A stretch of 64,000 bases of DNA from Gracilibacillus orientalis (GTDB taxonomy: Bacteria > Bacillota > Bacilli > Bacillales > Amphibacillaceae): positions 372,001 to 436,000 of the forward strand of contig NZ_FOTR01000001.1 of assembly GCF_900114645.1 (NCBI RefSeq), read 5' to 3'. Positions 5,140 to 55,341 of this stretch are shown here, in pieces. Position 1 is the stretch's first letter. Every line of letters starts with the position of its first letter. A model generated the notes under the pieces. The model was not told where the DNA came from. It saw nothing but the letters and a program-made list of their open reading frames with translations, and did not search any database. Position numbers and translations under genes: made by a program.

Positions 5140-5188
5140 GAGAGACTATGATCAGTGGGGTCTTACAGACGGTTAGCACCGTGATAAA
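5140..5188 (+). repeat. 49-bp deletion form of the GTGAGAC...GTGATAAA element
   Basis: Reads GAGAGACTATGATCAGTGGGG joined directly to TCTTACAGACGGTTAGCACC and GTGATAAA. The left part matches the left end and the right part the right end of the 147-bp copy at 41314, with the centre missing. It sits between the yhaM-like stop codon and its terminator. Confidence 0.75.
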
Positions 5189-5497: not shown

Positions 5498-5641
5498 ATG
5501 ATAATAATTATTGCCCTTCTCATACTTATTATTCTAGCATTTGACCTATCGAACATTCGAAAACAGCATGACCAAATCAAGGAACAGAATGAGGAAATCA
5601 TCGAGATCTTAAGAGAAATACGTGATAAAGTGAGACTATGA
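5498..5641 (+). CDS. Small membrane-anchored protein, 47 residues, C-terminus altered by an inserted element
   Basis: The ATG at 5498 opens a short protein with an N-terminal membrane helix (IIIIALLILIILAF) and a charged helical tail (QHDQIKEQNEEIIEILREI), a layout seen in many small bacterial membrane proteins. Its last codons, GTG AGA CTA TGA, are the first 12 bases of the 107-bp element at 5630. Removing that element would leave the reading ...RDK followed by TAG. The insertion therefore appears to have replaced the native stop with three extra residues. The Shine-Dalgarno (GCGAGG) is modest. Confidence 0.5.
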   Translation: MIIIIALLILIILAFDLSNIRKQHDQIKEQNEEIIEILREIRDKVRL

Positions 5642-5736
5642 TTAGGGTGTTAAGGTGGTAGCGTCTGTTATCCCCCACTTTGCTTCCTTGTGTTACTTGA
5701 AGTGGGGGTATTACAGACAGTTAGCACCGTGATAAA
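5630..5736 (+). repeat. 107-bp copy of the GTGAGAC...GTGATAAA element
   Basis: It starts GTGAGACTATGATTAG and ends TTAGCACCGTGATAAA. Inside, CCCCCACTT (about 5670) pairs with AAGTGGGGG, and an outer GTCTGT pairs with ACAGAC, giving a long stem-loop near the right end. It is flanked by ATAAA on the left, as in the 41314 copy. The left-end hairpin of the longer copy is missing. It lacks any coding capacity. Confidence 0.8.
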
Positions 5737-40987: not shown

Positions 40988-41206
40988 TCAATGATTTAAT
41001 TCTCTACCAAAATATAAGAAAGGAAGTCCCCAGACCATTATTATTATTTGCCAAAAATCAGTTATTTCAAACTTTGGGGCAAACATAGCTCCTGATATCA
41101 GTTGAATAATGAAAGCAAGTGCTGTACCATATTTCAAGATATCACGAGAATATTTATGAATGCCCTTAAAGAAAGGAATAGATGTAATGATGGAAAAACC
41201 CCCAAC
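40988..41206 (-). pseudogene. Possible C-terminal remnant of a membrane protein
   Basis: A 72-codon open frame with no start codon reads like the end of a membrane protein: FSIITSIPFFKGIHKYSRDI, then GTALAFIIQLISGAMF, then IIIMVWGLPFLYFGRELNH and a stop. The hydrophobic segments are well formed. It overlaps the first codons of the opposite-strand HAD pseudogene. Alternatively it is a chance frame. Confidence 0.35.
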
Positions 41207-41919
41207 TCATTTTAGATGTAGGTGGAGTTCTGGCGACTGACTTAGATCTATTTTGGGATGAACTCGTCAATCAGGCAGGTCTTCCTTATGATAAAATCCG
41301 AGCCATTTATAAAGTGAGACTATGATCAATGGGGGTTTTGACCCCACTGATCATTAGCGAAACTTATCAGGGTGTTAACGTCTGTTATCCCCCACTTAGC
41401 TCCCTTGTGTTACTTGAAGCTTGAAGTGGGGAGCTTACAGACGGTTAGCACCGTGATAAAACAGAAATTCGCGAACAACTTTGGCAAGGCGATATTTCAG
41501 AGTGTGATTTTTGGCTATGGCTCGATGATACTTTTCCTGGAATCAAATTAGAATATTTACAAGCAGTTATCCAGAAAAGCTTAGTTGAATTGGAAGGCAT
41601 CCATCATGTAGAAAAATGGAGTACTATCAGTGACATACATATATTGAGTAACCATCGCTCAGAATGGCTCCAACCAGTTATGGATCGACTTCGACCTTTT
41701 TTAACTAGTATGACCATATCTGCCGAGGTTGGTGTAGCTAAGCCTGATCCGATTATCTATAAGATTTGCAATAAACAAACAGATCCCGATCGTCCCATTT
41801 TATTTGTTGATAATAAACTAGAAAACCTGATCCCTGCTATTGACCTGGGCTGGCAAACGATTCACGCTGATCCAGATCATGAATGGATTTCAAAAGTCGA
41901 CCAATTCGTCCGTGGGTAA
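41187..41919 (+). pseudogene. HAD hydrolase gene broken by a frameshift and a 147-bp insertion
   Basis: ATG 41187 (with GAAAGGA upstream) starts MMEKPP; one extra C in a C5 run at about 41199 breaks the frame. The next frame gives LILDVGGVLATDLDLFWDEL to IRAIYK at 41313. There the small element at 41314-41460 intervenes and puts in VRL and a stop. After it the frame resumes as TEIREQLWQGDI and runs to AKPDPIIYKICNK, LFVDNKLENLIPAI and FVRG. Motif I DVGG, motif III K-x-D and motif IV VDNK identify a HAD hydrolase (usual DxD replaced by DVG). Element removal leaves a seamless reading. Confidence 0.8.
41314..41460 (+). mobile_element. 147-bp element with terminal hairpins, inserted in the HAD gene
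   Basis: It begins GTGAGACTATGATCA and ends GGTTAGCACCGTGATAAA. Near the left end ATGATCA..TGGGG pairs with CCCCA.TGATCAT. Near the right end CCCCACTT pairs with AAGTGGGG, with an outer GGTGTTAACGTCTGT pairing to ACAGAC.GTTAGCACC. ATAAA stands both before the left end and at the right end. It has no ORF. The hairpin near each end, the fixed AT-rich target and the lack of a clear flanking duplication fit a non-autonomous IS200/IS605 element (PATE). Confidence 0.7.
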
Positions 41920-55250: not shown

Positions 55251-55341
55251 ATTAAGTTATCCTCCATTACCTATGATAAATGGCTCACAAATATCTTTAC
55301 ACCGTTACAGTATATTGTCAACCTTTTGCTTTCATCACAGT

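Follow-up and report, generated by a model that had tools for sequence, protein, structure and literature searches.

A gene-less insert splits a HAD-like gene

The window analysed here, a stretch of 64,000 nucleotides from Gracilibacillus orientalis, contains a HAD-like gene that is split by a 147-bp insert at 41314-41460 (Table 1). The two pieces of the gene end and begin with ...IRAIYK and TEIREQ..., and a preliminary description of the locus, made from the letters alone, had stated that cutting out the insert rejoins the reading frame. Comparison with related genomes bears this out. An orthologue of 194 amino acids (L279) reads through the position without a break, IRAIYRTEIREQ, as does one of 209 amino acids (L280), IRAIYKTEIREQ. 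At the nucleotide level, the empty site in L280 and L281 consists of ATTTATAAA followed directly by ACAGAAATTCG, which is exactly the window minus the insert. In the genomes G007 and G014 this site is uninterrupted and holds a single ATAAA; in L279 and L282, the 5-mer at this site is not the same as the window's.

When compared with HAD-IA families, the L279 protein gave weak matches, one of five being barely above its cut-off (TIGR01549), and it had no Pfam match. The insert is not the sole lesion of the gene, as no in-frame start was found ahead of the left fragment and the window, near position 41170, lacks about 290 bp that precede the HAD gene in L279. The insert itself has no open reading frame of 60 or more amino acids and is too short for a transposase.

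Table 1. Coordinates of the element, its parts and related features in the window
Feature	Positions	Strand	Remarks
HAD-like gene, left fragment	41188..41313	+	No in-frame start found
ATAAA adjoining the element (TTTAT on -)	41309..41313		Target copy, or the last five bases of the element if read on -
147-bp element	41314..41460	+	Can equally be given as 41309-41455 on -, which we favour
Small hairpin (helix 1)	41323..41353		Would be the right-end (RE) hairpin on -; fold and covariation
CTAA (TTAG on +)	41354..41357	-	Near-invariant or invariant; 5' foot of the RE hairpin; columns T46 T47 A48 G49 of alignment A3
Outer stem, arm 1 (helix 2)	41364..41385		Fold and covariation
Inner hairpin (helix 3)	41389..41433		On -, similar to the hairpin at the left end of tnpB elements
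Outer stem, arm 2 (helix 2)	41437..41459		Fold and covariation
Terminal ATAAA of the element on +	41456..41460		On -, the target TTTAT before the left end
HAD-like gene, right fragment	41461..41919	+	From comparison with intact orthologues
Core-deleted 49-bp copy, both ends kept	5140..5188	+	Same as L028 541-589
107-bp copy without most of the small hairpin	5630..5736	+	BLAST match

Three helices are maintained by compensatory changes

Read on the + strand, the element has its right terminus at 41460, GTGATAAA, which is not an inverted copy of its left end, GTGAGACT; terminal inverted repeats are absent. Folding of the insert exceeds chance, both as RNA (z = -7.0) and, with 5-base flanks, as DNA (z = -6.9), with none of 200 shuffles folding as well in either case. 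We wrote a 49-pair structure by hand from the single-sequence fold and compared it with two alignments of copies; RNAalifold alone kept 12 pairs, and a model built with it (R1) was for that reason left unused. In alignment A3 (33 diverse copies), 90.5% of the cells are paired, compared with at most 44.1% when the structure is slid along the alignment, and double-sided changes fall in 153 cells, compared with a shuffled mean of 45.1. Changes on both sides affect 27 of the 49 pairs, and the small hairpin (8 of its 15 pairs), the long outer stem and the inner hairpin all contribute. Alignment A2 (50 copies) gave a similar picture, with 91.3% of cells pairing and at most 48.8% in slid versions. 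The three helices are maintained by compensatory changes, and the gene-less insert with a hairpin near each end that had been described is thereby confirmed.

Covarying helices would also suit a structured RNA kept by the host, such as a terminator, an mRNA stabiliser or a regulator, that is only incidentally repeated, and passages of PMC6542083 and PMC3446304 describe bcr copies, repeats of the B. cereus group, as often transcribed. However, no Rfam family matched at gathering score within the window, the element sits within the HAD gene, and its ends and target are fixed. GT/TG (86 cells) and AC/CA (92 cells) pairings are about equally frequent and reveal no strand preference, a test weakened by decay after insertion. 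We consider a host-kept RNA highly improbable.

The element has a fixed target and leaves clean empty sites

We counted the target in 60 distinct copies whose two ends both match a consensus. ATAAA stands immediately to the left of 52 copies and forms the last five bases of 47; the preliminary description had noted it in both places for the copy at 41314-41460. At least one side is variant in 18 of the 60, with the same variant on both sides in one (L012), and from position +1 onward, beyond the right end, the sequence is unconserved.

The flanks of 18 G. orientalis copies were then joined in pairs, and 13 of these and part of a 14th were searched in the genus. Eleven of the 14 searched sites were compared with uninterrupted relatives, the other three having no or marginal spanning matches among those listed. 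At 8 of the 11, the alignment to at least one relative is gap-free near the junction; the relative keeps ATAAA intact at 4 of these (L010, L018, L027 and L011) and differs in the 5-mer at the other 4 (L031, L034, L020 and L013), about the proportion expected from 15-20% divergence. The remaining three, L024, L016 and L019, align untidily on the right side or in the flank. We also considered whether ATGAA-type left variants are unusual targets and rejected this, as the L018 site is ATAAA in three relatives, indicating a later mutation. The empty-site comparison that the preliminary description had called for yielded uninterrupted relatives, with one ATAAA where the 5-mer is intact, and no variable target duplication.

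With one ATAAA in the empty site and one to either side of the insert, the insertion has two equivalent readings, one per strand. The doubled ATAAA could also be a fixed 5-bp duplication. If the element were a MITE derived from a DDE (cut-and-paste) transposon, such a duplication would account for ATAAA flanking the insert on both sides and standing single in those empty sites where it is intact. However, the doubled letters are almost invariably ATAAA, terminal inverted repeats are lacking and the subterminal hairpins are unequal in size; of all the explanations weighed here, we give this one the least credence. Read on the - strand, the element has a fixed short target (ATAAA/TTTAT), lies 3' of TTTAT and has no variable target duplication. 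In IS200/IS605 elements, according to passages of PMC7290912, the insertion site is chosen by guide bases that lie 5' of the hairpins, at their foot. The conservation of GTAA and CTAA on the - strand of the element is suggestive, CTAA at 41354..41357 being a candidate right guide. On the + strand the pairing TTAT.ATAA fails in 14-15 of the 33 broader copies.

The family spans part of the class Bacilli

The G. orientalis genome (G000) has at least 43 BLAST matches to the element, a lower bound obtained with 40 of 82 candidates scored, and 14 of the 17 genomes of the genus Gracilibacillus contain matches by BLAST. In the GTDB family, a covariance model built from 50 copies (R2) matched 86 of the 146 genomes sampled (32 of 46 genera); in the class Bacilli, a broader model built from 33 copies (R3) matched 40 of the 299 genomes sampled (24 of 119 genera). 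ATAAA precedes 16 and terminates 15 of the 18 copies fetched from the family (L182-L199, with L191 from the genus); of the 27 fetched from the class (L200-L226), it precedes 20 and terminates 16.

Copies on four named plasmids were confirmed with R3: those of Pseudalkalibacillus hwajinpoensis, Cytobacillus oceanisediminis, Peribacillus asahii, where the match covers mainly the small-hairpin half, and Klebsiella grimontii. The last is a shortened copy on pNY3A (CP079755.1, L255 3007-3111; E = 1.6e-9 with R3), and reflects either horizontal transfer or Bacilli-derived sequence in the record. A Niallia plasmid gave a weak BLAST match only, the 147-bp query itself had no match among the plasmids, and no element match was found in the phage records searched. 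A literature search with the hairpin letters of the element found nothing, and searches on Gracilibacillus repeats and on PATE and IS605 returned no paper on this family among the matches listed.

No tnpA or tnpB locus sampled has the ends of the element

Y1 (PF01797) matches are present in 12 of 17 genomes of the genus and 110 of 146 of the family, and the TnpB domain (PF07282) in 8 of 17 and 74 of 146, respectively. In G. orientalis, Y1 is represented by one broken remnant and PF07282 has no match at E ≤ 0.001; a TnpB-like open reading frame of 504 amino acids that scores below the curated cut-offs lies beside the tnpA remnant (L069 1482-2996, G000:C14). We fetched 54 tnpB loci (30 from the genus and 24 more from the family) and 56 Y1/tnpA-like loci (29 and 27, respectively), the best-scoring rather than all existing ones. 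Within this best-scoring sample, none of the 54 tnpB loci and none of the 56 Y1 loci has the two ends of the element as its own, and none has the terminus of the element as its own right end. The search for these ends beside tnpA or tnpB that the preliminary description had suggested gave one likeness, between part of the element, read on the - strand, and the left ends of some tnpB elements, as set out below.

Individual candidates for a parent were also set aside. The left end of the G. orientalis tnpA remnant reads as different, and a 172-aa IS200 present in G015 and other genomes is ruled out by its ends. Longer Y1 genes (L077, L078, L079 and L087; ORFs of 254-276 aa), which come from several Gracilibacillus genomes and are presumably RAYT-like judging by their size, have no element copies in the fetched loci. 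Element copies do occur near tnpB in L321, where the small hairpin is interrupted, in L299, where the copy runs off the contig end, and in L101, where the copy carries a deletion.

A Y1 match is found in 72 of 86 element-bearing genomes, compared with 38 of 60 element-free ones (p = 0.006, with kinship uncontrolled). Six of the 36 genomes with at least 15 scored matches have no Y1 match, including G002, G012 and G135, each of which is a single contig. In G002, which has neither a PF01797 nor a PF07282 match, no long element with both ends was seen among the 150 of 1,017 candidates scored; its Y1 enzyme may have been lost or may be of a type missed by PF01797.

High-copy genomes without a Y1 match are in keeping with a MITE of bcr1 type that moves without a Y1 enzyme, through some site-specific recombination acting at TTTAT, and passages of PMC6542083 and PMC3446304 describe bcr elements as MITE-like, with TTTAT motifs and a proposed mechanism akin to site-specific recombination. 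Against this stand the likeness to IS605-type left ends and the TTTAT target common to both. Moreover, when bcr1 was sought among the named plasmids, no B. cereus-group plasmid was among the matches, although the passages report bcr1 on plasmids. We regard movement by such a recombination as unlikely.

A probable likeness of the reversed element to the left ends of some tnpB elements

Five matches of the covariance models to the right half of the element are uncut by a locus edge: L103 (E = 0.98, R2), and L300 (0.00038), L312 (0.014), L321 (0.026) and L322 (1.1) with R3. All five lie just before tnpB, on the opposite strand, at a left end located by a separate motif search. The matches are individually weak and were made without a shuffled control, and the case for likeness is drawn from their common place and polarity. 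No such right-half match at E ≤ 1.1 was obtained with R3 in 27 Y1 loci, where the sole match is an 8-bit one to the small hairpin (L236, E = 4). Two further weak matches do not fit the pattern, one to the right half at another place, truncated by the locus edge (L109 1-54, E = 0.68), and one to the small hairpin (L082, E = 1.1).

This type of left end is found in 12 of the 54 tnpB loci, preceded by TTTAT in 10, TTGAT in 1 and TTAAT in 1 and beginning with C, the count of 10 of 12 being conditioned by the search for TT[TAG]ATC that set the position of the left end. These ends read TTTAT, C, 17-19 bases to the end of AGAAGA, the inner hairpin CTCCCACC...GGTGGGAG, ATGAA and the partner of the outer stem. 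The element, when reversed, reads TTTAT, C, outer stem, usually a sequence close to GTAAGA, inner hairpin, ATAA or similar, and outer stem again, and both fold as a two-storey stem. One locus, L232, holds a complete element behind TTTAT that encodes a TnpA of 132 aa and a TnpB of 380 aa; R3 did not match its left end at E ≤ 5. In L321, judging by its letters, a tnpB element lies directly behind the TTTAT that ends an element copy.

The right ends differ. L232 has GAAT, a hairpin and TAGTTCAA, with similar arrangements in others, whereas the element has CTAA, a hairpin, a tail and TTTAT; the TTCAA/TTCAC right ends of the tnpB elements were found by a motif search for those letters. Compared with full IS605-type elements, the element thus appears alike at the left and not at the right. 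The likeness of the left ends supports, although it does not prove, the - strand orientation, and what the preliminary description took for a right end is probably the left end of the transposon.

The preliminary description had gone further, reading the element on the + strand as a PATE whose right-end stem is an omega-RNA-like scaffold for a TnpB elsewhere, with the guide after GATAAA. In tnpB elements the omega-RNA is located at the right end, and several features are compatible with that reading: the right half forms a strongly covarying structure that runs precisely up to the terminus of the element, the + orientation fits the ATAAA target equally well, and TTATC and GATAA pair across the foot of the stem in Gracilibacillus copies. 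Yet the right end is common to none of the best-scoring tnpB or Y1 loci fetched (0 of 54 and 0 of 56), and the likeness found is to tnpB left ends, in the opposite polarity. The foot pairing is often absent, with columns 59 and 60 of A3 unpaired in 14 and 15 of the 33 copies. Besides G. orientalis, the genomes G002, G011, G013 and G014, with 21-41 BLAST matches each, have no PF07282 match. A guide scaffold is, in our judgement, very unlikely. The case carries a caution, as a structured transposon end may pass for the guide RNA of a TnpB if doubling of the target masks the orientation.

A probable PATE, proposed to be mobilized in trans

The family, target, ends, empty sites and covarying helices observed directly are probably explained by a PATE (a single-strand, non-autonomous transposon of IS200/IS605 type) that belongs to a structurally conserved family and would lie on the - strand, with peel-and-paste by a Y1 enzyme acting in trans as the likeliest mechanism. 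The broader claim of the preliminary description has support: its hairpins, its lack of genes, its short, fixed AT-rich target and the absence of a variable duplication make the element PATE-like. We infer the Y1 enzyme, the strand and the single-stranded circle from these features.

On the - strand, the target TTTAT would be followed by C, the outer stem, the inner hairpin, the outer stem again, CTAA, the small hairpin, a tail and the TTTAT at which the element would end. The stem read earlier as a guide scaffold would be the left end of the transposon. A TTTAT-specific Y1 TnpA, supplied in trans by a tnpB-bearing element of IS605/IS1341 type that is also found behind TTTAT, would bind the hairpins of one strand and cut at both TTTAT sites. 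The cut ends would be joined into a single-stranded circle, which would enter 3' of another TTTAT.

The best anatomical fit is provided by the PATEs of Haloquadratum walsbyi. As described in passages of PMC3119063, they have no open reading frame, near-terminal palindromes, no terminal inverted repeats and a short fixed target; they form both homogeneous and heterogeneous families, include core-deleted forms of about 50 bp, and have moved where intact tnpA is scarce. They differ from the present element in their archaeal host and in having ends similar to those of full IS605-type transposons, which here applies to the left end only. The IS605/IS1341-type tnpB elements of L232, L312 and L321, which come from bacteria of the same GTDB family, share with the element TTTAT in front, C as the first base, an outer stem with an inner CCCAC-type left-end hairpin, and a hairpin near the right end. 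Unlike the element, they encode TnpB (and TnpA), end in TTCAA or TTCAC rather than TTTAT and, for L312 and L232, measure about 1.5-1.9 kb as opposed to 147 bp. REP/REPIN repeats with TnpA-REP are likewise short, palindromic, non-autonomous and tied to Y1 enzymes, but are smaller and have other tags. The element is probably of the PATE kind, with a family that spans part of the class Bacilli.

The bcr1 repeat has TTTAT at both ends. By description, bcr1-bcr3 of the B. cereus group are the closest Bacilli repeats: passages of PMC6542083, PMC3446304 and PMC2267715 give them as 147 to 167 bp long, MITE-like, present in many copies and with a TTTAT motif. The element agrees with the descriptions of bcr1 (about 150 bp, TTTAT motif, MITE-like), and kinship is possible; in contrast to it, bcr1-bcr3 are described in the same passages as restricted to the B. 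cereus group. More tentatively, and on balance we doubt it, the element might belong to an old, class-wide, gene-less lineage of Bacilli that outlived its parent, maintains a two-storey fold of 150 bases through compensatory changes and uses the TnpA of TTTAT-specific IS605 elements similar to it at the left end alone, its right cleavage site now being a copy of the target, with bcr1 as one branch. If bcr1 is such a branch, the question of what moves it would be answered, and the alignments and models made here could be applied to it. An anonymous repeat of many Bacilli is here linked, with probability, to single-strand transposition, and its target, ends and probable orientation are given.

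Deletion derivatives, tandem arrays and neighbouring repeats

Seven copies of 49-50 bp in the G. orientalis genome have both ends, with the last bases altered in two. These ends-only forms can be attributed to deletions running from the AGTGGGGG repeat in one hairpin to that in the other, and a comparable deletion origin is described for the 52-bp PATE HqIRS46 in passages of PMC3119063. In G002, a subfamily of eight copies with 92.1-98.7% identity indicates recent movement. The same genome holds a tandem array of seven near-identical 117-bp element copies (L323, G002:C1:2623000-2624800). We set aside serial insertion as its origin, as tandem duplication is simpler for units so nearly identical. 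Smaller tandem sets of the element were seen in G411, G429, G231 and at G000:C6:209506-209788.

Other repeats lie next to or around some copies. A repeat of about 0.5-0.9 kb (L014 565-1414, G000:C19) seemingly contains two opposed element copies with their ATAAA ends outward, and L017, L021, L025, L029 and L038 comprise parts of the core and flanks of this larger type. The right flank of L020 (G000:C20, about 55270-55340) belongs to a different repeat of about 70 bp, which has matches in G007, G012, G013 and G014 and elsewhere in G000.
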